37,388 nucleotides of DNA from a virus: positions 1 through 37,388 of the IMG/VR virus record IMGVR_UViG_3300000956_000089, one strand, 5' to 3'. The stretch's first letter is position 1; each line of letters starts with the position of its first letter. Made by a program: the position numbers and the translations under genes. Below are positions 1,707 through 21,982 of this stretch, in pieces. The notes beneath the pieces are model-generated. The model was given only the letters and a program-made list of their open reading frames with translations, was not told where the DNA came from and ran no database searches.

Positions 1707-1793
1707 GCCTCACCTTAACCCTTTAGCGACCCAGCGCCCCGGAAGGCGTGACGGCCTGCGATGGACCTTAACAACCTATTTGGAGTACGATAA

Positions 1794-1815
1794 AAGTATG
1801 AACCGGTTCATACTT
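1794..1815. promoter_or_regulatory. Perfect 22-bp palindrome, candidate parS or operator, copy 1
   Basis: The half-site is AAGTATGAACC, followed by its exact reverse complement, centred at 1804/1805. Twenty-two nucleotides (1792-1813) are identical to a segment inside the parB-like gene (6817-6838). The second palindrome is 33 bp away centre to centre, about three helical turns, which suits cooperative binding on one face of the DNA. It could be bound by the ParB-like protein or by the HTH protein at 3120. Confidence 0.7.
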
Positions 1816-1821
1816 CGTCCT

Positions 1822-1853
1822 GGTGAAAGTATGAATCGATTCATACTTTCACC
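1822..1853. promoter_or_regulatory. Perfect 32-bp palindrome, candidate parS or operator, copy 2
   Basis: The half-site is GGTGAAAGTATGAATC, followed by its exact reverse complement, centred at 1837/1838. Its inner 18 bp differ from copy 1 only at the symmetric central positions (ATCGAT in place of ACCGGT). The right half overlaps the stop codon of the leftward lipoprotein gene (stop at 1849-1851), so it could also fold as a hairpin at the end of that transcript. Confidence 0.7.
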
Positions 1854-3015
1854 CGCACAGCGCCTCACAGGGTATACCATCGCCATCGTTATCCAGGTTG
1901 CCCCAATACTGCGGACAGGCCGTGAGGTATGCATGAACAGCCCCGCATGAGCCGAAGCTTCCACAGGTGCGCGCGGGGCAGCCCTCATAAGGATTCTCGG
2001 TTGCCGTCGGCGCAGCGGTTGGTGGAACGGAAGTCGGCACGGTAGTTGGTGTTTTAGTAGGCGGCGCGGATGTAAAAGTTGATGCCGCTGTGGGGGCTGA
2101 TGTAGAGGTTGCAGCAGAGGTGGCGGTGCTGGTTTGGCGGGTGGGCGATGCTGTCGCAGTAGGCGCGTCGGTCACAACTTCGGTCGGCGTAAAGGCTGGT
2201 CGGGGTGTGCGAGTAACAGGGCGATCTGTGGCGGCTGCCTCCTCGGTTCCAGGCGTTGCACCGGACTGGCTTTGGTTGGCCTGCTGGATCAGGCGATCAG
2301 CAGCAATGTCGGCGTATTCCTCAAACTCTGCCAGATCAAGCAGCCCCGGCCTTGCCGTCATGGTTACGCCACTGATCAGATTGTGGTAGCGGATCAGCAG
2401 CTCAACGGCGTCGTATTCATCTCCGTTGTCAAGGACGCGCTTCCCTGAGAAAGCAATGCTCTGATCAGCGTACTGAGTGAACGACATAGGGCGAAGGGAA
2501 ATAGTCGCATCCGAAAGCGCTTCGTAGTCTTCTATGAGCGCCCGCGCTTCTTCGTGGCCTGGAAATTCAACGATCCAGTTTCGAAGAAATGCACCCCTTA
2601 CCAGATCGGAGCGATTAAAAATCTGGTTATACCCTTTGATCTCTCCGTCAAATGTAAGCGCATCAACATACAACTGACCCCGGAGAGAAAGCATATACTC
2701 GGCAGTCATCGGGCCGCTATCGTCGGCGTTGAAGGTGAAACCGGGGTACAGATCGGAGATTTGCAGCAGCGCAGCCTCCATATCTGAATCAGAAAGCACA
2801 ATAGGTTGCGGCGCGGGTGTATCTGTGGCGGTTGGAGTTGATGTCTCGGTGGGCGCGGTAGTTGCCGTTGCTGTACGCGTGATAGTGGGCAGGGGTGACA
2901 AAGTAGGCTGCGCGGCAAGAGTCTCAGCAATAGCCGTCTCGACGGAATTTGCGCTCGGAGTGGCAGGGGCGCAGCCAGCCAGCAGGATAGTCAGGGCGAT
3001 CAGGATGCGACGCAT
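1849..3015 (-). CDS. Lipoprotein with Thr/Pro-rich linkers and C-terminal Excalibur domain
   Basis: The 388-residue protein begins with a short lipoprotein signal and lipobox (LLAGC, acylated Cys15), so it should be anchored outside the cytoplasmic membrane. A Thr/Ala/Pro linker (about residues 36-70) leads to an unrecognised globular region (about 75-250). A second low-complexity linker (about 255-340) follows. The last 43 residues match the Excalibur calcium-binding domain, with paired cysteines and DNDGDGIPCE. GGAGGC lies four bases before the ATG. It is the only leftward gene in the left part and is flanked by palindromes, so it looks like a cargo ('moron') gene expressed from a lysogen or carried for host-surface change. 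Its function is not established by sequence. Confidence 0.8.
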   Translation of the reverse strand: MRRILIALTILLAGCAPATPSANSVETAIAETLAAQPTLSPLPTITRTATATTAPTETSTPTATDTPAPQPIVLSDSDMEAALLQISDLYPGFTFNADDSGPMTAEYMLSLRGQLYVDALTFDGEIKGYNQIFNRSDLVRGAFLRNWIVEFPGHEEARALIEDYEALSDATISLRPMSFTQYADQSIAFSGKRVLDNGDEYDAVELLIRYHNLISGVTMTARPGLLDLAEFEEYADIAADRLIQQANQSQSGATPGTEEAAATDRPVTRTPRPAFTPTEVVTDAPTATASPTRQTSTATSAATSTSAPTAASTFTSAPPTKTPTTVPTSVPPTAAPTATENPYEGCPARTCGSFGSCGAVHAYLTACPQYWGNLDNDGDGIPCEALCG

Positions 3016-3119
3016 AACAGCCTCCGGCAGACGATGAAGGGTCTAGCGAAATTGTCAGGGAAGCCGAATAAAAAGTAAAGGGTCAATCAACCCATGAGCA
3101 GGAAAGGGGGTGATTTTGG

Positions 3120-3413
3120 GTGGTAGCAGTAGCTTATGATCAGCTTGAATTTGACGTACCTTTCGCCACGCCTATCATAGAGGTTGTGGCGAAAGTCAGG
3201 CGCATCTCAGTCGCGCCGGTTCGCAGAATGGCAGAGGCACGCGGAATCAAGACGGCGCGTGCGTTTGAACAGGCAACCGGCCTCAGTCATCCAGCCGCCT
3301 TAAAATGGTGGGGGGATAGGCAAGAACGCCTCGATCTTGAAAGCATGGTCACTCTAGCAAACTTCTTTGGTTGTCTTCCGCAGGCACTAATCGAGCCAGA
3401 ATTCGAAGAATAA
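3120..3413 (+). CDS. HTH DNA-binding regulator (Cro/XRE-like)
   Basis: The protein has 97 residues. Residues 38-90 (MAEARGIKTARAFEQATGL, ...LESMVTLANFFGCLPQAL) read as a five-helix Cro/XRE HTH domain, although the recognition helix (HPAALKWWGDR) is unusual in holding two Trp. The GTG at 3120 is preceded by AAAGGGGG at about nine bases. It lies divergent to the lipoprotein gene and just upstream of the early promoter at 3427, the usual site for a phage repressor or early switch protein. Its targets may be the palindromes at 1794-1853 or sites at 3421-3455. Confidence 0.7.
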   Translation: MVAVAYDQLEFDVPFATPIIEVVAKVRRISVAPVRRMAEARGIKTARAFEQATGLSHPAALKWWGDRQERLDLESMVTLANFFGCLPQALIEPEFEE

Positions 3414-3426
3414 TAGTAACGCTAGC

Positions 3427-3455
3427 TTGACATTATAGCAGTTTGGCCTTATACT
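3427..3455 (+). promoter_or_regulatory. Consensus sigma70-type early promoter
   Basis: TTGACA (3427-3432), a 17-bp spacer and TATACT (3450-3455) make a near-perfect vegetative promoter. It would drive the rightward early operon from 3550. A GCTAGC palindrome (3421-3426) touches the -35 box and could be part of an operator. The leader of about 90 nt contains an imperfect hairpin (AGGGAAGCC at 3488-3496 with GGCCTCCCT at 3503-3511). Confidence 0.8.
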
Positions 3456-3549
3456 GAGGGTGTAGTTTAACAACCTGAGACGCGGAAAGGGAAGCCTTGC
3501 AGGGCCTCCCTCTCCACATAGTCACCGACATACCAGACTTGGAGGTCAT

Positions 3550-4185
3550 ATGTCAGCAACCACCCATCAGTATACCGATTCTCATTCCACAGCACAACCG
3601 TTCCACCCTCTCCCCATCCCTGTCGAGTTTATCCACCACATCACGCCCGACGGGACATTCTTCCGCTTCCGCCTGAGCAAGATCACCGCCAAAAGCTGGG
3701 TGCTGGAAAACCTGCGGACCGGCGCGCGGCTGCCCGTGAAGGGCGAGGCAGCGTGGAAAGTCATCCTCAAGGAACTGATCGAGTCTCTCAACCAGAAGCA
3801 CCCCGCCCCTGTGCCCCTGCTGCCCGCTGTCGCTGCTAGCACTGCGGTTGCTGCCAGCGCTGCGGTTACTACCAGTACCGTGACGGCCCAGCCAGAGATG
3901 GCAGTCGCCGCCGTCGCAGCGCCGATCATGGAGCAGAAGATCGCCCTGCCGTCCGAGTCGCTCGCTGATGGCTACGCGCTGGGCACCTGCGAGGGTTGGC
4001 TGAACGCCCACCCGGATACGTACCCCTACGCTGACGTGCCGGTCACTACCCCGAAGGGTCACCACAAACACCTGTGCGCCCACTGCGCGCTGGCCTATCA
4101 GAAGGCAATGGCAACCGTGCGACTCAACGAGCGGGACACAAAAGCGCGCGGCCTGCGGTATGTGCCCTTCCAGGAGAATGCATAG
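3550..4185 (+). CDS. Hypothetical early protein with Ala/Val-rich linker and C-terminal Cys/His motif
   Basis: GGAGG (3541-3545) sets the ATG at 3550. The protein has 211 residues. Residues 25-80 form a compact N-terminal domain (FFRFRLSKITAKSWVLENL). An Ala/Val/Thr linker follows (about 90-130). The C-terminal part has GTCEGW and HLCAHCALAYQ, a possible metal-binding module. It is the first gene behind the early promoter. I do not recognise the family. Confidence 0.7.
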   Translation: MSATTHQYTDSHSTAQPFHPLPIPVEFIHHITPDGTFFRFRLSKITAKSWVLENLRTGARLPVKGEAAWKVILKELIESLNQKHPAPVPLLPAVAASTAVAASAAVTTSTVTAQPEMAVAAVAAPIMEQKIALPSESLADGYALGTCEGWLNAHPDTYPYADVPVTTPKGHHKHLCAHCALAYQKAMATVRLNERDTKARGLRYVPFQENA

Positions 4186-4187
4186 TC

Positions 4188-4448
4188 ATGAGCACCAACA
4201 ACATGGACTCTTGGACGGTACGGCAGCTCCTGGAAGCTGCCAAGCGCGGCGATCAGGATGCACTCTTCGCCCTCGCGATGTTGACGCATGACGCGATCTC
4301 CGAGGTGACCCGGCTGCACCAGCGGATCGGGCAGCTTACCCGCGAGGTAGACGAGCTGGCCCTGGAGAATGAGGAACTGAAATTCGACCGGGATCAGCAG
4401 GCGATTCTGAGCGCGCTGGATGTGCGTCAGGGCCGCGTGCCGAATTAA
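4188..4448 (+). CDS. Small coiled-coil early protein
   Basis: The ATG at 4188 lies two bases after the stop of the preceding gene. The 86-residue protein has an N-terminal helical part (VRQLLEAAKRGDQDALFALA) and a heptad-rich segment around residues 42-70 (RIGQLTREVDELALENEEL), which is likely a coiled coil used for self-association. Role unknown. It is probably translated together with the neighbouring small genes. Confidence 0.65.
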   Translation: MSTNNMDSWTVRQLLEAAKRGDQDALFALAMLTHDAISEVTRLHQRIGQLTREVDELALENEELKFDRDQQAILSALDVRQGRVPN

Positions 4449-4457
4449 GGAGGGGAG

Positions 4458-4796
4458 ATGGATCAGACACAAAAAAAGCTCACGCGCGGCCCGGTCACTA
4501 TGAAGATGCGGTTGCCGGGCGAGCGCGACTACCAGGATGTCGCGGTCAACGGCCTGATCTTGGGCCAATTCGGAGTTGCTCGCTACCCGGATAAGTCGGG
4601 CTGGTCGGTCACGCATCTGCCATCGGGAACATCTGTTCAGCAGCGCGGCCCCATTCCGACCATGGCGCGGGCTGTCGCGCTACTGCTTCTCGCCCATGCC
4701 GTCAGCGGGGATACCGATCTGCTGTCCGATCCCCCGCCGACCGAGGTGCGCGAGGCGCTTACCGCTGCTTATCGCGCCTGGGAGCGCGGGGAGTAA
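4458..4796 (+). CDS. Hypothetical early protein
   Basis: AAGGAGGGG just upstream is a very strong Shine-Dalgarno sequence for the ATG at 4458. The protein has 112 residues and starts with a basic stretch (DQTQKKLTRGPVTMKMRL). A beta-rich middle (DVAVNGLILGQFGVARYPDK) is followed by helices (ARAVALLLLAHAV and EVREALTAAYRAW). Function unknown. Confidence 0.65.
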   Translation: MDQTQKKLTRGPVTMKMRLPGERDYQDVAVNGLILGQFGVARYPDKSGWSVTHLPSGTSVQQRGPIPTMARAVALLLLAHAVSGDTDLLSDPPPTEVREALTAAYRAWERGE

Positions 4797-4801
4797 GGCG
4801 C

Positions 4802-5080
4802 ATGAATCACATCGACTTAATCGCCCTGCTGGTGATCCAGCCCATCCCCGCCGATCTGTACGCCGATGTCTGTGCGCACTTTCACTGTGACGCACGGGGC
4901 TGCACATCGGAGCAGGTGGCGGCCTATCTCCGGCATGAGCTGACCAACTACGACGCGGTCCTGAGGCTGTTCTGGGTCAGCGCCGAGGATTACGCCCTGT
5001 TTAAGGCCGCTACCAATCGGCTAACTCAAACCGCATATGAAGCGTGGCGCGCCGAGCAACGTCAGCGCCGCGCATCCTAG
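4802..5080 (+). CDS. Small hypothetical early protein
   Basis: The 92-residue, largely helical protein starts five bases after the previous stop. It has a Cys/His-containing stretch (DVCAHFHCDARGC) and a basic C-terminus (EAWRAEQRQRRAS). No family recognised. It is the last gene before a strong hairpin at 5088-5118, so it may close a transcription sub-unit. Confidence 0.6.
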   Translation: MNHIDLIALLVIQPIPADLYADVCAHFHCDARGCTSEQVAAYLRHELTNYDAVLRLFWVSAEDYALFKAATNRLTQTAYEAWRAEQRQRRAS

Positions 5081-5087
5081 ATCACAC

Positions 5088-5118
5088 GCCCCTCGCTGGT
5101 ATACCGTCAGCGAGGGGC
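5088..5118 (+). terminator. Perfect 11-bp GC-rich hairpin after the stop codon
   Basis: GCCCCTCGCTG (5088-5098) pairs perfectly with CAGCGAGGGGC (5108-5118) around a 9-nt loop. It begins eight bases after the stop at 5080 and ends about 30 bases before the next gene. There is no clear U-tract, so it may be a weak terminator or an mRNA 3'-end stabiliser. Confidence 0.65.
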
Positions 5119-5147
5119 TATTACCACACTGACGCGAGGAACCCACC

Positions 5148-5468
5148 ATGACCCAAGAATTAACCCACCACACGCCCGGCCCCTGGAAAGCCCCAGAGCA
5201 TCCCTCTGGCGAGATGGGTTTTGTTTGGCAGATTACACCAGAGCGCCCCCATCACCGGCACGCGTGCGCCGTCGGTACGGTCTTCCGCTGGGGCGATCTA
5301 CTTGCCGAGTCGGAGGCCAACGCGCGCCTGATCGCCGCATCCCCCGACCTGCTGGCAGCTTGCAAGGCCGCCGTCGAAGTGATCTCCGATCTGGACTCCG
5401 AAGAGACTGGGCACGTTTATTACCAGCTCCTGAAGGCCATCGAACGAGCCGAATCCAGCCATGAGTAA
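5148..5468 (+). CDS. Conserved phage protein of the TPGPW / NARLIAASPDLL type
   Basis: The 106-residue protein has the N-terminal HTPGPWK motif and the central EANARLIAASPDLLAACKA motif typical of a widespread family of small phage proteins of unknown function. They are usually found among early or replication genes, as here. The C-terminal helix contains EETGHVYYQLLKAIERA. Its last eight bases overlap the start of the initiator gene, which suggests translational coupling. Confidence 0.8.
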   Translation: MTQELTHHTPGPWKAPEHPSGEMGFVWQITPERPHHRHACAVGTVFRWGDLLAESEANARLIAASPDLLAACKAAVEVISDLDSEETGHVYYQLLKAIERAESSHE

Positions 5469-6348
5469 CACCACCCTTAATTGGAATATGCGCAACGTGC
5501 TGGTCTATCTCAAGGACGAAGGCCGCCTTGCGGTATATCTCGCCTACGTCCTCCATGCCGATCATCGCGGGCGCGCATATCCCTCCATCGACACCTTAGC
5601 CAAAGAGACCGGCTACGGCAGAACCACCGTGATCGCTGCCAAGTCGTGGCTCTTAGAGCATAAGGCGCTTGCCGTCGTGCCCTTCGAGAAACGCATGGGG
5701 CAGCGCGAAACCACGCTCCACCACCGCCGCGAGGTCATCGAAGTAACGGGGCTGATCAAGCTCGATGACGGGCGCATCGTAGAGCTGCTCTATGAGAATC
5801 ATCGCCATCCAGATGACGATGATAGTTCAGCAGATGAACCAAAGAATAGTTCAGCAACTGAACGTTCACCTGCTGAACCCGAAGTTACTTCTGTTGTTGT
5901 TGATCCTGAATCAATTCAAATTGAGGAATCAACAACAACACCCTTGGAGTACCTTCCACCTTCAGAGGGGGAGTGTGAGGGGGAGGCGGACCTGGAAGAC
6001 GATGACCCCTGGGCAGAAGTTGAGCGCGCGCGCGAGCGAGACAAGCTCGACTTGCCCCGCACGGGCGATCCCCGCCTGGCACGGCTGGCCCGCACGAATG
6101 ACCTGTGCGCTCATGTGTCGCCAGAGCAGCTCCGTGCATGGATTGGGCAATACGGCGCGGATCGGGTGGTCGAAGTCGCGCGCTGGTTTTGCTCGGAGAT
6201 GATGCGCGGCAAGGCCGAATCGGGCGGATGGATGCGCCGCGCGCTGGAATATCGCTGGGCAAACCCACCCTATAGCTTTGTTGAGGATAACTGGCTCACT
6301 GAAGATGAGCGCCGCGCGCGGTATGCGCGGGATGCCGCTGAGTTTTAG
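5461..6348 (+). CDS. Winged-helix replication initiator-like protein
   Basis: The 295-residue protein begins with a winged-helix DNA-binding domain (about residues 1-85; YPSIDTLAKETGYGRTTVIA is the HTH core) of the type found in phage replication initiators. An acidic, low-complexity linker (about 110-185) follows. The C-terminal helical domain (about 195-295) contains WMRRALEYRWANPPYSFVE, which resembles DnaD-type C-terminal ends. The linker-coding DNA holds iteron-like repeats and an AT-rich stretch, the layout of lambda gene O. I infer that it binds these repeats and opens the origin; a purely transcriptional role remains possible. No helicase or polymerase gene is recognised nearby, so host replication proteins are probably recruited. 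Confidence 0.7.
   Translation: MSNTTLNWNMRNVLVYLKDEGRLAVYLAYVLHADHRGRAYPSIDTLAKETGYGRTTVIAAKSWLLEHKALAVVPFEKRMGQRETTLHHRREVIEVTGLIKLDDGRIVELLYENHRHPDDDDSSADEPKNSSATERSPAEPEVTSVVVDPESIQIEESTTTPLEYLPPSEGECEGEADLEDDDPWAEVERARERDKLDLPRTGDPRLARLARTNDLCAHVSPEQLRAWIGQYGADRVVEVARWFCSEMMRGKAESGGWMRRALEYRWANPPYSFVEDNWLTEDERRARYARDAAEF
5825..5940. other. Candidate replication origin inside the initiator gene
   Basis: Three 15-bp copies of GTTCAGCA-NN-TGAAC occur at 5825-5839, 5849-5863 and, inverted, 5864-5878. The first two lie 24 bp apart and share the preceding ATA. They are followed by an AT-rich stretch bounded by an inverted repeat (TGTTGTTGTTGAT at 5892-5904, ATCAACAACAACA at 5928-5940). Iterons followed by an AT-rich unwinding element within the initiator gene is the known lambda origin design. 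The assignment is inferred. Confidence 0.6.
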
Positions 6349-6363
6349 TGTTAGGAGACCCGT

Positions 6364-8775
6364 ATGATCATCCACATCGCGCCGCTGCTGATCCAGGCCA
6401 ATCCCTGGCAGCCCCGGCTCAACCATGACCCCGCCGGGATTCGCGATCTCGCCCTGAGTATTCGAGGGGAATATGAGCGCCTCCCCCGTGAGCATCGCGG
6501 CTTGCAAAGCCCTCCGATGGCGCGCTTTGCCGATCTGTCTGGGGTGGGCTTACAGCATCCCCTCAGCATGGATGCTGTCTATGAGCTGGTCCACCAGACC
6601 GAAGCGGGTGAGGCGCAGATTCAGCTTGCTTTCGGGCATCGCCGTCTGGCTGGCTTCCGGCTGCTGGCAGATGGCGATGGGTCGCAGGACTGGCGGCCTG
6701 ATGAGCGGTTTGACGAGATCCCCCTGGTGATCGCGATACTCACCGACCGCCAGATGGCAGAGACGGCAGCGAGCGAGAATATTCACCGCGTCGATCTGAG
6801 CTGGTTCGAAATTGCAAAAAGTATGAACCGGTTCATACATGACTTCGCAACCTCTCAGGCTGAAGCTGCGCAGATTTACGGCCTGGGCAGCCAGTCAAAC
6901 GCAGCGCACTATCTGCGCGCCCATGACGCTGTTCAGGAGTTTAACAGCGTTGAACTTACTCACTTGGTACAGACGGGGCAGCTTGGCCTCAAGCACGCCC
7001 TACACCTCGTTCCCCTGCTGCGCGATCAGCCTATCGCGGCGCGCCAGTGGATCGTAGGGGGCAGCGGGCTGTACGCCAATGCCGAGCATACCGAGATTTT
7101 GTCGGCGAACGCCATTCGTGAGCAGGTGGATCGACTGCTGAGTCGGGCGCGCCCTGCGCCGCGCGTCGCCAGCCAGCCCATGCTTGAGCGCGAGTACAAC
7201 CATGATCCGCATCGTGTGCGGGTGGATGGTGCGCGCCTGGTGGATGGTTCTGGCGTGCCGAAATATAAGGGCGTTCACAAGACTCATACCGAGGTGGACG
7301 GCTGGAAAGAGCAAGAGAAGGTCATCTTCGCTACTCACAGCGAGGCGAATGCGTGGTTCGAAGCGACCACCGCGCGCCTGATCGCTGAACAGCAAGCCGC
7401 GATCCCTCAACCCGCCGAGGCCGCGCCTGACGCGCTGCCCTGGTATGCGGCCTATGACAAGGCGGTCGAAGCGCACCCAGACCAGACAGTATTTATGCAG
7501 CTCGGAGACGGGGGGCATATCTGGCTGGCAGTTGGTATTACGGCCTACAAGCTCACGGACAAAATCCAGGGCATGACGGCTACACTCACCTATGCCACCC
7601 CCGCCGATCCTGTGGCAACGACCTTTGCGATAAAACTCTGGATGGGCGATCCAGATCAGGTAGATCGCCTTACTGCCGTCATTGGACCGATCCACACCTA
7701 TCTGGAGCCAGATCGCAGCCTGTGGGCACTGATCGGTGATCTGCCGTCTGCGCCACTGCCCAGCGAAGCCCCTGTTTCTGAGCCAACTGCCACCACGCCG
7801 CCCGAAGACGCATCGCAGCCCGGCGCACCTGTTGAGGCTGCTGCGCCCGCCGATCTCCCGACTGAGGACGGCGAAGACGATCCGGAGTGGTGGCAGTCCA
7901 GCGCCAGCGAGGAATGGTACACACCGGGGCATATCATCAGCCGGGCGCGCCGGGTGCTGGGTGAGATTGCACTCGATCCCGCTTCGAATTGGATCGCGAA
8001 TAAGACGGTGCGCGCGGGGCGCTACTTCGACAAAGAGCAGGACGGCCTGGCGCAAGAGTGGATCGCGGACACCGTATGGCTCAACCCACCCTATGGACGC
8101 GGTATCGGCGCGTGGGTGGATAAGCTGGTGGATGCAGTGGAGGCTGGGCAGGTCAAGCGCGCCCTGCTGCTGCTGCCCGCGCGCACGGATACGAAATGGT
8201 TTCGCCGGTTGAGGGGCTACCCGCGCTGTTTTGTGGGCGGGCGGCTGCGCTTCCGAGGATCAAAGGGCGAGCACAGCAATGCCGCCACGTTTCCCAGCAT
8301 GATCGTGGCGTTGGGCGATGTTGATGCGCGCCTCTTCGAAGAAACGTTTGGCGATGTCGGCGACATCTACCTGCTGAACGAGCTGTGCGCGGCCCCCGCC
8401 CTGGTGCGCGCCGTCGCGCTGCCTGACGATGCCCCGCCGGTTGAGCGCGGCCTCGCCGAGGTCATCGCCGCGCTGACACTGGCACAGACGGCCATGGATC
8501 AACTTGGCGCGATCTCTCTCAGTGCGGCGGATCGGGAGCTGTTCGCCTTCACCAAGCGCGCGATGGAAACCACCGTGCTGCCGTATCGAGAGATGGTGGA
8601 GCTGATCGCTGGGTCGCTCCCCGCGCTGCGTGAGCGCGTCGAAGCTGCGCCCGATCTCGCGCGCGAGGTGCGTATGGCGGTGCTGGATCTGCGCAAGCCG
8701 CGCCCTACACTGCGTCCAGAGGACTTGATCGGAGCCGAGCAGCCTGCTGCCCCGCCAGAGCAGGAGGCCGCATGA
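6364..8775 (+). CDS. ParB-like protein fused to a phage Dam-type N6-adenine methyltransferase
   Basis: The protein has 803 residues. The N-terminal part matches ParB/Spo0J: NPWQPR (13-18), FGHRRLAGFRLL (90-101, the GERR-box equivalent) and SENIHRVDLS (137-146). A ParB-type HTH (about 150-195) follows. The middle (about 280-500) includes a possible DNA-binding segment near 300 and an acidic linker. Residues 505-670 match the phage DNA N-6-adenine-methyltransferase family: SSEW-like start, IALDPAS (535-541) and the catalytic NPPYG (574-578). A helical tail ends the protein. ParB domains bind and hydrolyse CTP in partition proteins; the methylase would modify adenine in phage DNA. No ParA gene is visible. 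The gene contains an 18-bp palindrome at codons 153-158. Its end overlaps the next methylase by four bases. Confidence 0.85.
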   Translation: MIIHIAPLLIQANPWQPRLNHDPAGIRDLALSIRGEYERLPREHRGLQSPPMARFADLSGVGLQHPLSMDAVYELVHQTEAGEAQIQLAFGHRRLAGFRLLADGDGSQDWRPDERFDEIPLVIAILTDRQMAETAASENIHRVDLSWFEIAKSMNRFIHDFATSQAEAAQIYGLGSQSNAAHYLRAHDAVQEFNSVELTHLVQTGQLGLKHALHLVPLLRDQPIAARQWIVGGSGLYANAEHTEILSANAIREQVDRLLSRARPAPRVASQPMLEREYNHDPHRVRVDGARLVDGSGVPKYKGVHKTHTEVDGWKEQEKVIFATHSEANAWFEATTARLIAEQQAAIPQPAEAAPDALPWYAAYDKAVEAHPDQTVFMQLGDGGHIWLAVGITAYKLTDKIQGMTATLTYATPADPVATTFAIKLWMGDPDQVDRLTAVIGPIHTYLEPDRSLWALIGDLPSAPLPSEAPVSEPTATTPPEDASQPGAPVEAAAPADLPTEDGEDDPEWWQSSASEEWYTPGHIISRARRVLGEIALDPASNWIANKTVRAGRYFDKEQDGLAQEWIADTVWLNPPYGRGIGAWVDKLVDAVEAGQVKRALLLLPARTDTKWFRRLRGYPRCFVGGRLRFRGSKGEHSNAATFPSMIVALGDVDARLFEETFGDVGDIYLLNELCAAPALVRAVALPDDAPPVERGLAEVIAALTLAQTAMDQLGAISLSAADRELFAFTKRAMETTVLPYREMVELIAGSLPALRERVEAAPDLAREVRMAVLDLRKPRPTLRPEDLIGAEQPAAPPEQEAA
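6821..6838. promoter_or_regulatory. Palindrome inside the parB-like gene, candidate parS, copy 3
   Basis: The half-site GTATGAACC is followed by its exact reverse complement. The 22-nt segment 6817-6838 is identical to 1792-1813. It lies within the part encoding the first helix of the ParB HTH region (SMNRFI). The protein aligns with ParB here without an insertion, so this is a binding site embedded in the gene rather than an inserted element. Bacillus subtilis has a parS site inside spo0J, a precedent. Confidence 0.65.
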
Positions 8776-9647
8776 TCAGCAGTCCACCCCTTCGATACTT
8801 CGGGAGCAAGTGGCGGATCGCCGAATGGATCATCGCCACCTTTCCATCGCATCGCACCTACTGCGAACCGTACTGCGGTGGGGCGAATGTGTTCTTTCGT
8901 AAACCGCCGTCCGTCTATGAGGTGCTTAACGATTTGGATGGCGAGGTGATCAACTTCTTCCAGATGCTTCGCACTCGCGAGGCCGAGCTGATCCGAGCGA
9001 TTGATCTCACGCCCTACAGCCGCGAAGAGTGGCGGTTGTCGCGCATCGACGACGGCTGCACCGATCCTTTGGAACGAGCGCGTCGGTTCTATATCTCCTC
9101 TCGGCAGTCGTTCGGCCCCGGATCGAGGAAGCGACAACCCGGTTGGCGCTTCGCGAACGGGAAACACATCGACAATAAGGAGCGCTCTGTTACACGTGAA
9201 TGGAGCAACCTAGATCATCTGCTGGCAGCAGCACACCGCCTAAAAGCAGCAATGATTGAGTGCGATGATGCGCTGAAGGTCGTTGAGCGCTTTGACACGC
9301 CCCGGACTCTCTTCTACGTCGATCCGCCATATGTTCATGCTACCCGCTACAGCCGTGACGTGCCCAACGACTACACCCACGAAATGACCGATGCGGATCA
9401 CGAGCGCCTCGCCGAAGTGCTGCACAATGTCAGTGGGTACGTGGTGATCTCTGGGTATCGCTCTGATCTGTATCAGCGGTTATACCCAGACTGGAAGCGC
9501 CTGGAGAAGGCGGCCCGCTCCAACTATAACGGTACACATGGCAATTCGGGCGATGCCAATCGCGTCGAATGCCTCTGGCTATCGCCCCGTGTGACCAGTG
9601 TGGACGCGCTTCCGCTATTTGCTATGCGGGGGGGGGTACGACGTTGA
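8772..9647 (+). CDS. D12-class DNA adenine N6-methyltransferase (Dam-like)
   Basis: The 291-residue protein is near the usual length for Dam-like enzymes. It shows the family's N-terminal motif (YFGSKWRIAEWI, residues 9-20, with W where K is common), the SAM-binding region (EPYCGGANVFF, 32-42), NDLDGEVINFF (53-63) and catalytic DPPY (184-187). The reaction is SAM-dependent methylation of adenine, in relatives often at GATC, which is abundant here. It starts by ATGA overlap with the ParB/Dam fusion, so two adenine methylases are made from one transcript. Its 3' end contains a 9-G tract and overlaps the TTG start of the next gene by three bases. Confidence 0.9.
   Translation: MISSPPLRYFGSKWRIAEWIIATFPSHRTYCEPYCGGANVFFRKPPSVYEVLNDLDGEVINFFQMLRTREAELIRAIDLTPYSREEWRLSRIDDGCTDPLERARRFYISSRQSFGPGSRKRQPGWRFANGKHIDNKERSVTREWSNLDHLLAAAHRLKAAMIECDDALKVVERFDTPRTLFYVDPPYVHATRYSRDVPNDYTHEMTDADHERLAEVLHNVSGYVVISGYRSDLYQRLYPDWKRLEKAARSNYNGTHGNSGDANRVECLWLSPRVTSVDALPLFAMRGGVRR
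9628..9636 (+). other. G9 homopolymer tract at the junction of two methylase genes
   Basis: Nine G lie three codons before the stop of the D12 methylase and eight bases before the TTG of the C5 methylase. Reading it with one extra G, or a -1 ribosomal slip, would join the two enzymes in one frame. As assembled, the genes are separate and overlap as TTGA. Confidence 0.6.
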
Positions 9648-10309
9648 AGCCGCTTCTACTTGATTTGTTTTGTGGGGCCGGAGGGTGTGCGATGGGCTAT
9701 GCCCGCGCGGGCTTCGACGTGATCGGTGTGGACACTGCTCCGCAGCCGCATTATCCCTTCTGGTTTCACCAGGCGGACGCACTCGAATTCGTTGCGAAGT
9801 ATGGGGGCGAGTTTGATGTGATCCACGCGAGTCCTCCGTGCCAGCGCTACACAGGGATGCGTAAGGTGACTATCGCGCGGTTTGGTTTTGTCTCGACTGA
9901 CTATCCTGACCTAATTGAACCTGTGAGAGAGGCACTCACAAAAAGCGGTAAACCCTACGTTATTGAAAACGTACAGAACGCGCCGCTCAAGACACAGATT
10001 ATTCTATGTGGGGTCTCGCTGGGGTTGAATCGTTTGGCGAGACATCGGCATTTCGAGTCTAACATCTTGCTGTTCGCTCCGAAATGTGCTCACAGATCTG
10101 TAAAAGAGACTATAGGTGTTTATGGCTCGAAGCCGGACGGTCGCCGGGTCAGCTACCCACAACATAAATTAAGCCGTATCGCTAACAGCATCGATGAAGC
10201 TCGCGAAGTGATGGGCATTGATTGGATGGATTGGGACGAAATAAAAGAAGCTGTACCCCCCCCCGTACACAGAGTACATCGGGCGACAACTTGCGACGGT
10301 GCTGGATAA
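9644..10309 (+). CDS. C5-cytosine DNA methyltransferase, C-terminus frameshifted at a C9 tract
   Basis: From TTG 9644 the protein shows motif I LDLFCGAGG (6-14), catalytic SPPCQ (63-67, Cys66) and the ENV motif (108-110), all as in short phage C5-cytosine methylases. Near the end it reads MGIDWM...EIKEAVPP and then, after nine C (10256-10264), an unrelated tail to a stop at 10307-10309. Dropping one C instead gives PPPYTEYIGRQLATVL, the expected family ending, stopping at 10332-10334. So the gene is frameshifted, by mutation, phase variation or sequencing error. The gene is less GC-rich than its neighbours, which hints at separate acquisition. The TTG overlaps the upstream stop. Confidence 0.85.
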   Translation: MKPLLLDLFCGAGGCAMGYARAGFDVIGVDTAPQPHYPFWFHQADALEFVAKYGGEFDVIHASPPCQRYTGMRKVTIARFGFVSTDYPDLIEPVREALTKSGKPYVIENVQNAPLKTQIILCGVSLGLNRLARHRHFESNILLFAPKCAHRSVKETIGVYGSKPDGRRVSYPQHKLSRIANSIDEAREVMGIDWMDWDEIKEAVPPPVHRVHRATTCDGAG

Positions 10310-11747: not shown

Positions 11748-12026
11748 ATGCTACGTTGTCCAAACTGTGGAATCAAGCTTGATATAGAGGAGCTGGCGCT
11801 CACTGAGCGCCAGCGTACCATTCGTACCGCCGTCGAAGAGATCGAACGGGATACCGCTAAACCCGCGCGCACACTGGCGATTGCCGAGCACGTCGGTTAT
11901 GCGCCCACCACGATTAAGCCTGATCTGGCTCATATGGAGCAGGTTGGGATTCTCTGCCGTCCAGATGGCCCTAAGTCAGGGTGGAGTCTCAAGAAGAAAC
12001 ATCTGCGCCTGGTGCGCGCCGCCTAG
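11748..12026 (+). CDS. Small winged-helix regulator with N-terminal CPNC
   Basis: The 92-residue protein begins with a CPNC knuckle (Cys4, Cys7). A winged-helix-like domain follows (about 20-80): RTLAIAEHVGYAPTTIKPDL is the HTH, and GILCRPDGPKSGWSLKKK is the wing. It is the last rightward early gene, and its final four bases overlap the 3' end of a leftward HTH gene. A role in the early-late switch is plausible but unproven. Confidence 0.65.
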   Translation: MLRCPNCGIKLDIEELALTERQRTIRTAVEEIERDTAKPARTLAIAEHVGYAPTTIKPDLAHMEQVGILCRPDGPKSGWSLKKKHLRLVRAA

Positions 12027-18925: not shown

Positions 18926-20128
18926 ATGAAAATTCTCTGGCACAGCAATGCCCCCTGGACACCAACGGGCTACGGCAATCAGACCGACACCTTTATCTGG
19001 CGGCTGCGCGATGCGCTCAAGCACGAGATAACCGTTTCCTGCTTCTATGGGCTGGACGGCGCGCCGATGGTGATCAACGGCATGACGATGCTCCCTAAAG
19101 GGCGTGATGCCTATGGGCTGGACACGCTTCAGGCCAATACAGAGTACATCGGGGCGGATGTGGTGATCACCCTGATGGATGTATGGGTGTTTCCAGCGCA
19201 GGTGACCAGTAATGTACGCTGGTGCCCCTGGTTCCCCATCGATCACGATCCTGCCCCGCCGGGCGTGCTTCAGGCGCTTCAGTCAGCGTTTATGCCGATT
19301 GCATACAGCAAATTCGGGCTGCGCAAGCTGGAAGAAGCGGGGATGAAGGCGCTGTACGTGCCGCACGGTATCGACACGAATACCTATAAGCCCATTGATC
19401 AGAAGGTGGCCCGCGAAGCGATGGGCGCGCCAAAGGATGTATTCCTGGTCGGGATTGTGGCAGCCAATAAGGGCGTACCCAGCCGTAAGGCATTCGATCA
19501 GCAGATCCGGGCGCTTGCTGCGTTCCACAAAAAGCACCCTGACAGCATGTTGTATCTGCACACCGACATGATGGGGCTGATCGGTGAGGATCTGGGCAGC
19601 ATCATTGTGGATGCGGGCTTGCCCCCAACGGCAGTTGCGACGCCGCCTGTCTATCGCTATGCGATGGGGATGCTCGGCAAGGATTACATGGCGCACCTCT
19701 ACAGCAGCTTCGATGTGCTTATGAATTGCTCGCGCGGTGAGGGCTTCGGTGTGCCCATCGTGGAAGCGCAGGCGTGTGGCGTGCCGGTGATCGTGGGGGA
19801 TTACACCTCCATGCCTGAGCTGGTCTTCGCAGGGTGGACGGTTGGTTACTCGGACAAGTTCCGCTCACAGGAAAGCTACCAGTTTGTACCCTCGGTAAAT
19901 GAAATGGTAGACGCCCTGGAACTTGCCTATGAAATGAAGGGCAATCAGGCGATGCGAGCGCAGGCCCGCACGGGCGCGCTGGAATACGACGCGGATCGGG
20001 TGACACAGGTGTACTGGAAGCCTGCGCTGGAAACGATTGCCGCCAAGCTCAATGCAGGGCGTGAGCGTCTCAAGCCAGTCGTAATTGAGTCGAAGGCTCC
20101 GATGTCGGAGCAGGCAGCGGCAGACTGA
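18926..20128 (+). CDS. Glycosyltransferase family 4-like protein (GT-B)
   Basis: The 400-residue protein begins MKILWHSNAPWTPTGYGNQT, the N-terminal GT-B start. It has the linker phrase VPHGIDTNTYKP and the C-terminal donor-site motif NCSRGEGFGVPIVEAQACGV with the E-x7-E pattern (EGFGVPIVE), followed by PVIVGDYTSMPEL. It should transfer a sugar from a nucleotide-sugar donor; acceptor unknown. GAGG precedes the ATG. It opens a 3.7-kb island between the capsid and connector genes and is coupled to the next gene by TGATG. Confidence 0.85.
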   Translation: MKILWHSNAPWTPTGYGNQTDTFIWRLRDALKHEITVSCFYGLDGAPMVINGMTMLPKGRDAYGLDTLQANTEYIGADVVITLMDVWVFPAQVTSNVRWCPWFPIDHDPAPPGVLQALQSAFMPIAYSKFGLRKLEEAGMKALYVPHGIDTNTYKPIDQKVAREAMGAPKDVFLVGIVAANKGVPSRKAFDQQIRALAAFHKKHPDSMLYLHTDMMGLIGEDLGSIIVDAGLPPTAVATPPVYRYAMGMLGKDYMAHLYSSFDVLMNCSRGEGFGVPIVEAQACGVPVIVGDYTSMPELVFAGWTVGYSDKFRSQESYQFVPSVNEMVDALELAYEMKGNQAMRAQARTGALEYDADRVTQVYWKPALETIAAKLNAGRERLKPVVIESKAPMSEQAAAD

Positions 20129-20844
20129 TGAAACAGCCCGATGTGTCTGTGTTGATGGCAGTGCGTAATGGCTTGACGGCCTATCCAGACGGAATGCTGT
20201 CTCGTGTGATTGATCAAACTTTGCAAGAAGAGAATGTTGAACTCTGCATTGTAGATGACTGCTCTACCGATGATACCCGCGTATGGTTGTTGAGTTCGCT
20301 CGATAAAACCAGGGGGCGTTTTTATCATCTTCACGAACGACGCGGCCCAGCGGCTGCTTATCAAGATGCTACCCATCTGGCGACCGGGCGCTACATCATT
20401 CTTCAGAGTGTACGGAGCTGGTATGAGCCGGGCGCACTCAAGGCGATGGCTGAAGCTCTTGATAGTCATCCGGAGGTTGGGTTTGTCTATGGGCAGACGC
20501 GCTATCACGGGGCAAGTGAGCACATACACGTGCCGCCGCCTTTCATTAAACAGCGCTTCTTCCACAACTTCGATTCGCTGTTTGGGTATATGTATCGGTG
20601 CGAGGCGCTCGACGCAGGCTGCGAGTATGTGAGCTATTTGGAGAAGGACGGCAATCCTATCGATATTGCCGACTATGACTTCGCGATGCAGCTCATTGTA
20701 AAGATGGGATGGTCAGGGCTGGCACTGAGAGATCGCCTCTGCCTTCATTACTACTACAGCGGGCAGGGGCAGCAGACTGCTCTGGTGCATCGGCATCAGC
20801 ACGAGATTGACGCGATCTTCAGAGAGCGATGGGGGACAGCGTGA
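20128..20844 (+). CDS. Glycosyltransferase family 2-like protein lacking a clear DXD motif
   Basis: The 238-residue protein has the GT-A start DVSVLMAVRNG (5-15) and the family's VDDCSTDDT (42-50). Further on are HERRGPAAAYQDATHLATGR and YIILQSVRSWYEPGAL. In active family-2 enzymes the segment before WYEPGAL is normally D-x-D-D or similar; here it reads SVRS (94-97). So metal-dependent catalysis may be lost, or another acid may serve. It starts by overlap with the preceding glycosyltransferase stop and ends overlapping the next gene as GTGA. Confidence 0.8.
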   Translation: MKQPDVSVLMAVRNGLTAYPDGMLSRVIDQTLQEENVELCIVDDCSTDDTRVWLLSSLDKTRGRFYHLHERRGPAAAYQDATHLATGRYIILQSVRSWYEPGALKAMAEALDSHPEVGFVYGQTRYHGASEHIHVPPPFIKQRFFHNFDSLFGYMYRCEALDAGCEYVSYLEKDGNPIDIADYDFAMQLIVKMGWSGLALRDRLCLHYYYSGQGQQTALVHRHQHEIDAIFRERWGTA

Positions 20845-21206
20845 CAGTGCTTAAGTTTAGCGGCGTTTTGAATATCAAGTCGTCGGGCGATCCCGGCGGC
20901 GAGGTGTTTATCGGTGAACGCGACGTTTTTGCAGAGGTTTCAGAGGTGTTTGCCGATGGAACGAGGGTGTATGTGGCGCTGGCGGACGAATATTTTGATG
21001 GCGACCTGTACGCCGAAGATGGTATCCAGGGTTACAGCGAGTGGACACCTGGCGAGGCGTGCCAGCTAAAAATTGGCAAACATGATTTAGTGCAAAGGCT
21101 TGACGATATTTTTTGGAAAGCTGCACCCCGCGATGTCGCTGTCACGCTATGGGTTGCGGATGAGCCAGTAAACACACTTGAAGACAACAAGGATCGTGAC
21201 GAATGA
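20841..21206 (+). CDS. Hypothetical protein within the glycosyltransferase island
   Basis: The GTG at 20841 overlaps the previous stop (GTGA) and is preferred over an in-frame ATG at 20829. The protein has about 121 residues, is acidic and beta-rich (LKFSGVLNIKSSGDPGGEVF, VYVALADEYFDGDLYAEDG), and ends in a charged tail (NTLEDNKDRDE). No family is recognised. Somewhat lower GC than the late genes around it. It overlaps the next start by four bases, so it is co-translated with the sugar-transfer genes. Confidence 0.6.
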   Translation: MTVLKFSGVLNIKSSGDPGGEVFIGERDVFAEVSEVFADGTRVYVALADEYFDGDLYAEDGIQGYSEWTPGEACQLKIGKHDLVQRLDDIFWKAAPRDVAVTLWVADEPVNTLEDNKDRDE

Positions 21207-21982
21207 TGCGCGTTGGCTGGCTGGCGGACAAACCCGATTACAAGGGCGGCGCGGAACTGGAAGCCGAGCGGCTGATCGCCTGTGCTCCATCGGGGATAGA
21301 GATAATCCCGTGCCCGCCGGGGCGGATCGTGGCGGATGTGGATGTGTATGTCATTCACAACTGCTTCGACTATGACCGCACGATCATTGGCACGCTCTCT
21401 CAGAAGCCCGTGATCAAGCGCATTCATGATGTCTGGCTCGCAGGCAATATGGACCTGCGGCGCTGGCTGCTAGCGCACAGCAAAGTCCTGCTGTTTTCCA
21501 GCCCACTTCATTTAGAGGTGTTCAAGTGGCAGGTGAGCGCGCCGATCCGCCTGATCCCCAGCGCGATAGATACCACATCATTCGAGGTGCTCAAGCCCAA
21601 TGGTCGCACCGGGGCGTGTTGGATCGGGCGGATGGTAGACGGCAAGGGGATTCTGGAAGCGGCGGCGTGGGCCAAGATGGAGGGCTTGACTCTCGACTTG
21701 TACGGCTTCCCGCGCATTAACAACCTGCCCGCGCCCATTCGCTACTGTGGCGAGCTGCCCCCGGAGGCAGTTGCTAGCACGCTGGCGCAGTATCAAACCT
21801 TCGTGTTCCTGCCTGAGCAACCTGAGCCGTATGCGCGGACGGCGGTTGAGGCGTGGCTCGCTGGGTGCAAGCTGGTGATCAACGGCAATGTAGGCGCGCG
21901 GTGGTGGATCGAAAAGCACCCTGAGCAAATCCCCCAGGCGGCGAGCCTGTTCTGGGAAACGGTTACAAGGGCAGTGAACTGA
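21203..21982 (+). CDS. Short glycosyltransferase-like protein (GT-B type)
   Basis: The 259-residue protein begins MMRVGWLADKPDYKGGAELE, a GT-B N-terminus. It has LIPSAIDTTSF, then GRTGACWIGRMVDGKGILEA, and a donor-site-like end (FVFLPEQPEPYARTAVEAWL), where the second Glu pairs with one upstream in GT4 style. It is shorter than usual GT4 enzymes, mainly in the N-terminal domain. It ends in TGATG shared with a small ORF. Substrate unknown. Confidence 0.75.
   Translation: MMRVGWLADKPDYKGGAELEAERLIACAPSGIEIIPCPPGRIVADVDVYVIHNCFDYDRTIIGTLSQKPVIKRIHDVWLAGNMDLRRWLLAHSKVLLFSSPLHLEVFKWQVSAPIRLIPSAIDTTSFEVLKPNGRTGACWIGRMVDGKGILEAAAWAKMEGLTLDLYGFPRINNLPAPIRYCGELPPEAVASTLAQYQTFVFLPEQPEPYARTAVEAWLAGCKLVINGNVGARWWIEKHPEQIPQAASLFWETVTRAVN

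Follow-up and report, generated by a model that had tools for sequence, protein, structure and literature searches.

The virus record IMGVR_UViG_3300000956_000089 of IMG/VR, whose 37,388 bases were analyzed whole (hereafter the window) and whose genes include terminase, portal and tail genes of a tailed phage, carries three related palindromes that, judging from sequence and from a structural model, are probably parS-like sites on which a ParB-type protein of the phage itself nucleates. That protein forms the N-terminal half of a ParB-like/Dam fusion of 803 amino acids (aa) encoded at 6364-8775 on the plus strand. The best reading of this arrangement is an orphan ParB/parS-like clamp-loading system with a new site specificity, fused here to a Dam methylase. 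A preliminary description of this DNA had suggested a phage parS set; the suggestion is now supported by the presence of the same word in a second phage with the same type of helix-turn-helix (HTH), and of another palindrome set in phages with another HTH type.

The repeated palindrome itself is real and beyond chance, as was confirmed. The identical 22-nt sequence described earlier, AAAAGTATGAACCGGTTCATAC, is found at 1792-1813 and 6817-6838, and both copies contain the 18-bp palindrome GTATGAACCGGTTCATAC, exact at 1796-1813 and 6821-6838. Site 1 is a 22-bp perfect palindrome, AAGTATGAACCGGTTCATACTT (1794-1815), between convergent gene ends; site 2 is a 32-bp perfect palindrome, GGTGAAAGTATGAATCGATTCATACTTTCACC (1822-1853), whose TCGA-centered core at 1829-1846 reads GTATGAATCGATTCATAC, an 18-bp palindrome match of a kind for which shuffles give 0.01 expected; site 3 is GTATGAACCGGTTCATAC at 6821-6838, in the parB/dam gene, within the helix just before the HTH (no strand is assigned to any of the three). 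The 32-bp palindrome near the first copy had been reported correctly, the 33 bp given with it being the centre-to-centre distance of sites 1 and 2, and the proposed half-site, GTATGAACC, is right for two of the copies; in the third it is GTATGAATC. No other perfect palindromes of at least 16 bp occur in the window, and the copies are all-or-none, the three sites scoring 36-41 bits and the next best position in the window below 0. The exact 16-mer word, TATGAACCGGTTCATA, is present in two copies plus one TCGA-centered variant, against an expectation of ~2e-6 copies under a dinucleotide model.

The proposed reader comprises a ParB CTPase fold (residues ~1-143), a ParB HTH (~144-265) and a Dam domain (514-649); its ParB DNA-binding domain, encoded at 6793-7158 on the plus strand, includes the putative recognition helix (residues 177-193, QSNAAHYLRAHDAVQEF). 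By an AlphaFold model of the first 269 residues, built from a five-sequence alignment (pLDDT 81), residues 1-265 are a ParB CTPase-plus-HTH module: the closest solved structures are KorB, Noc and ParB over residues 1-265 (Z 12-13, with KorB on top at Z 13.4), and the Noc DNA-binding domain 6y93 matches residues 144-264 at Z 9.6 and that of KorB, 1r71, at Z 8.2. ParB boxes I-III follow in order (NPWQPR, GHRR, ENIHR), TIGR00180 matches at E 4.3e-10, and HTH_ParB at E 6e-4, under its cut-off. The Dam domain (PF05869, E 7.7e-13, 48.9 bits vs a cut-off of 28.1) has NPPY at residue 574. The reading frame as called has a predicted start 12 residues ahead of NPWQPR, which, if it is the true start, would be too close for an N-terminal membrane-binding helix to fit. 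Three methylase-like genes stand in a row at 6364-10309: the ParB-fused Dam, one of the D12 class and a weak C5 type.

Only two lineages in IMG/VR other than that of the window contain the exact 16-mer. One is IMGVR_UViG_3300037762_000489 (G001, loci L040-L042), a record of 44,471 bp in which the word stands seven times exactly and once more in degenerate form, TATAAACCGGTTAATA; it has seven perfect palindromes of at least 16 bp, and every one is the exact word. Because its ends overlap by 159 bp at 98.7% identity, we take it to be a complete circular genome or the permuted equivalent. Its ParB-like protein is 33% identical to that of the window over 276 aa (BLAST, E 4e-38), and its HTH shares Q177, H182, Y183 and K210; INPHARED gave no match for the G001 ParB or for the winged-helix protein discussed below, and a phmmer match of the G001 ParB to an alpha-amylase was judged spurious. 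The other lineage, G004/G005 (L049/L050), has one exact 16-mer with a near copy 20 bp away, at a junction of methyltransferase stop and HTH start (L052 12993-13028 in G004, L053 7125-7160 in G005), and no similarity to the window or G001 was detectable in it. The exact 22-mer had no further match in IMG/VR beyond the window. Scans with AGTATGAA-N4-TTCATACT and with Y/R-relaxed forms gave, beyond G001 and L049/L050, single matches mostly in AT-rich contigs, which we judged to be chance, and L004/G002 proved to be a Dam-domain relative without sites.

The class of site changes with the class of HTH across five phages, namely the window, G001 and three relatives found with a ParB alignment: G3 (L043/L044), G7 (L058/L059) and G8 (L060/L061). 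The HTH reads GLGSQSNAAHYLR in the window and GLNTQASVSHYVR in G001, vs GLSDSAVRNKMR in G3, GLSESAVRNKIR in G7 and GMSDATVRGMVR in G8. No TATGAA-N4-TTCATA was found in the latter three, which carry instead dispersed exact sites of GTTTC-N4-GAAAC, the half-site of canonical parS (four in G3, five in G7 and three in G8, with shuffle means of 0.00-0.05); this motif is absent from both the window and G001 and occurs once in 54 control phage loci (473 kb in total). Among 30 control loci of at least 8 kb, a palindrome family of any kind was seen in one locus, with two members. The search of relatives for sites near parB homologues, which the preliminary description had proposed, gave a positive result, with the exact word and its degenerate copy in the phage of the same HTH type and a different, parS-like set in those of the other. 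As a separate observation, Enterococcus phage Efs 1-1-1, which has a weak ParB match, carries TGTTTCATGTGAAACA twice (L085 12256 and 15738), one mismatch from canonical parS.

The placement of the sites is also uneven. By a simple gene caller, five of the seven perfect sites in G001 and two of the three in the window are intergenic in genomes that are 87-90% coding (P ~6e-4 for G001 and ~3e-5 for the two together, with 7/10 perfect sites). Site 3, as the preliminary description had it, lies within the ParB-domain gene without insertion: it covers codons 153-158 (SMNRFI) of 6364-8775 and shows no indel vs four relatives, so that it took the place of existing codons. Given the peptide, its DNA has a probability of ~4e-4 by codon usage (AGT being 12% of Ser and ATA 5% of Ile codons), and on this product of rare codons we rejected chance in coding DNA as its origin. 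Each of the five phages has one site inside its parB-like gene, exact or degenerate (degenerate in G001 and G8), with a joint chance of ~0.001 if independent. The same reading frame, MNRFI or INRFI, is used in three of four coding copies, the degenerate one included (6820-6837; L042 3613-3634; L040 336-357).

The Noc/ParB specificity code agrees with the window site, in a fit that is weak. In a phmmer alignment, Q177 of the window falls at the position of ParB R173/Noc Q173 and K210 at that of G201/R201, and both residues are conserved in G001. Noc Q173 reads A1 and Noc R201 reads C6 of the Noc-binding site, NBS (PMC7383237); in the half-site T-A1-T-G-A-A-C6-C, A1 is present in 3/3 window sites and C6 in 2/3. 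Bases 3-5 of the half-site differ from those of parS and NBS, the usually conserved contact residues N178 and R204 are replaced by H and L, and a one-residue insertion in the HTH turn weakens the comparison.

Several observations weigh against ParB as the reader of the palindromes. The window and G001 also share, by BLAST, a replication protein, a small terminase, the winged-helix protein and a scaffold-like protein, so co-occurrence alone cannot single out ParB. The covariation rests on five phages, two of one class and three of the other, and the GTTTC sites of G3 and G7 could belong to a second, canonical ParB present in both; in G8 the ParB relative is the sole HTH-bearing ParB. At position 6, site 2 carries T instead of C, and the Noc/ParB code does not predict the combination of D/E173 in G3, G7 and G8 with a G at position 1 of their sites. 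The Pfam ParB_N and NCBIfam scores of the window protein lie under their curated cut-offs, and no ParB is visible in the 19.8-kb G004/G005 fragment. Taken together with the evidence above, binding of the ParB half to the palindromes is still likely as a prediction from sequence.

It is quite unlikely, in our estimate, that the palindromes are instead operators for a phage regulator, chiefly a 92-aa LexA/HrcA-like winged-helix protein with a Cys-rich N-terminus (11748-12026, plus strand) and to a small degree the Cro/C1-type HTH protein (HTH_26) at 3120-3413 on the plus strand. The winged-helix protein is common to the window and G001 (79 aa aligned at 53% identity, a closer match than that of ParB), its HTH matches the LexA_DNA_bind and HrcA models, and mycobacteriophage repressors reportedly have many dispersed sites of this sort (stoperators); but none of G3, G7 and G8 encodes it, and their own dispersed palindromes follow ParB, and the LexA box, GAAC-N4-GTTC, differs in spacing from the palindromes here. 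Position argues in the same direction, since many of the sites lie inside genes or, like sites 1 and 2 and two of those in G001, between convergent gene ends, a place that would leave an operator without a target, and not at promoters. For the protein at 3120, which the preliminary description had offered as the alternative reader, G001 encodes no homologue and no site lies at the promoter region, and an operator for it was rejected on both grounds.

A host-encoded DNA-binding protein, whose sites would have been acquired by phages that share a host group without being related, we consider very unlikely as the reader. It would also explain the G004/G005 lineage, with its exact word and near copy and no ParB in the fragment, and the similar G+C of the three lineages (~59%); but the 18-mer, the form taken by 3/10 perfect sites of the window and G001, is found only once among 84,980 species genomes, in a Flavobacterium gene, and no sequenced species therefore shows a repeated set of this form. 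That one match was judged to be chance (a lone copy, in an AT-rich genome, inside a gene), and the switch between GTTTC and TATGAA tracks the ParB type of the phage. Least probable of all, and only barely credible, is that no phage protein reads the palindromes and that they are a short selfish repeat or a structural element of DNA or RNA such as a cruciform or terminator. Near-identical copies without intermediate forms, some in coding DNA, would suit a selfish repeat, but the parB copy replaced codons instead of being inserted, and from phage to phage the kind of site goes with the type of ParB; with neither a T-tract nor a terminator call at 1794-1853, the 32-bp palindrome was rejected as a terminator.

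Classical partition is an unsupported role for these sites. The claim that no ParA is visible was borne out, in that no PF13614 match at E ≤ 1 was found in the window, a search that gave a match in 14/14 control genomes; nor was there any at the same threshold in the circular G001, or in G3, G7 and G8. The ParA-binding motif (L/F/I)G(K/R)G(L/F/I), sought by regular expression, is absent from the ParB of both the window and G001, and with neither ParA nor its motif found, the partition system also raised in the preliminary description is left without support. Tyrosine and serine integrase domains were found in neither the window nor G001. A likeness to ParABS, including that of the phage-plasmids P1 and N15, remains in the ParB fold, the 16-bp palindromes, the site in or by parB and the spread of sites over the replicon (3 in the window, 7+1 in G001; compare the dispersed iterons of phage-plasmids, PMC5016525), whereas the window lacks ParA and the ParA-binding motif.

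Closer parallels come from orphan ParB-fold proteins. Noc, the nucleoid occlusion protein of Firmicutes, likewise is without ParA and has a 16-bp palindrome dispersed over the genome; NBS (TATTTCCCGGGAAATA) and TATGAACCGGTTCATA have TAT...ATA ends and a CCGG centre in common, and at specificity positions 173 and 201 both proteins carry Q and a basic residue, respectively. They differ in half-site bases 3-5 (GAA here instead of TTC), in the change of contact residues N178 to H and R204 to L, and in that ours is a phage protein fused to Dam; NBS itself, with up to 3 mismatches, has no match in the window. KorB of plasmid RK2 and its operator OB offer an orphan CTPase clamp whose palindromic sites are likewise multiple and dispersed, as well as the top structural match, but no KorA-like partner was identified here, our protein is fused to Dam, and the OB core TTTAGCSGCTAAA, with up to 2 mismatches, has no match in the window. 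The PRTRC cassette is a further point of contact, the G001 homologue sitting in a PRTRC-like cassette, whereas the window gene is weak for PRTRC ParB (TIGR03734, 21.5 bits where the cut-off is 278.6) and no other gene of the cassette was identified in the window. The ThiF (E 8e-40), B (E 1.8e-14) and C (E 1e-6) members of G001 lie downstream of parB. Phage fusions of ParB-CTPase and methyltransferase, with the ParB fold, a DNA methylase and no ParA motif, appear beside orphan ParBs in a survey, with N6_N4 and type-23 methylases as the common forms (PNAS 2025, PMC12704722).

In the orphan ParB/parS-like reading, a ParB dimer would read the two half-sites through its HTH, binding of a nucleotide, probably CTP, would close the dimer into a clamp, and the closed clamp would slide onto flanking DNA. 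The residues needed for CTP binding or clamp control in C. crescentus ParB, R60, R103, R104, N136, R139, Q58 and E135 (PMC8367383), correspond by alignment to R18, R93, R94, N139, R142, Q16 and E138 in the window. The hydrolytic E102 (GERR) is H92 in the window and is also H in G001, G3, G7 and G8; since E102A ParB does not hydrolyze CTP and spreads further in E. coli (PMC8367383), slow clamp release and long spreading are predicted from the sequence. Given the lack of ParA, use as an orphan clamp is likeliest, with a KorB/Noc-like coating of the early region that may serve gene control or DNA organization. KorB, an orphan clamp with dispersed sites, can silence genes over 1.5 kb (PMC11790492), and silencing of this kind is, by analogy and less certainly, our preferred comparison for both phages.

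The Dam arm fused to ParB may, in the window phage, also methylate the coated DNA. Taken furthest, the ParB half would load, slide and drag Dam along, so that the phage methylates its own genome in cis as an anti-restriction or timing mark, a self-marking clamp that we regard as unlikely. The G001 homologue lacks the NPPY motif, and DNA marking therefore cannot be a function common to both phages. We know of no earlier description of a ParB switch that steers methylation of its own genome.

Elsewhere in the window, the left-end intergenic DNA forms three long imperfect hairpins (276-360, 1509-1617 and 1635-1708) without an Rfam match, and neither Rfam families nor tRNA were found in the window. 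The stretch 1849-3015 encodes a putative lipoprotein of 388 aa with a C-terminal Excalibur-type calcium-binding domain just under the Pfam cut-off, and glycosyltransferase-like genes, recognized from translations only, lie within the structural gene block at 18926-21982.

Orphan ParBs and ParB-methylase fusions are common in phages, and the available part of the PNAS 2025 survey (PMC12704722) describes no DNA sites for such proteins, whereas the window offers a candidate set. With TATGAACCGGTTCATA tied to one ParB HTH type as a concrete site set, and a parS-like GTTTC-N4-GAAAC set tied to another, in phages without a ParA match, the role of ParB clamps in phages that have no partition motor becomes directly testable, as does the possible guidance of a DNA methylase by such a clamp to the genome that encodes it.

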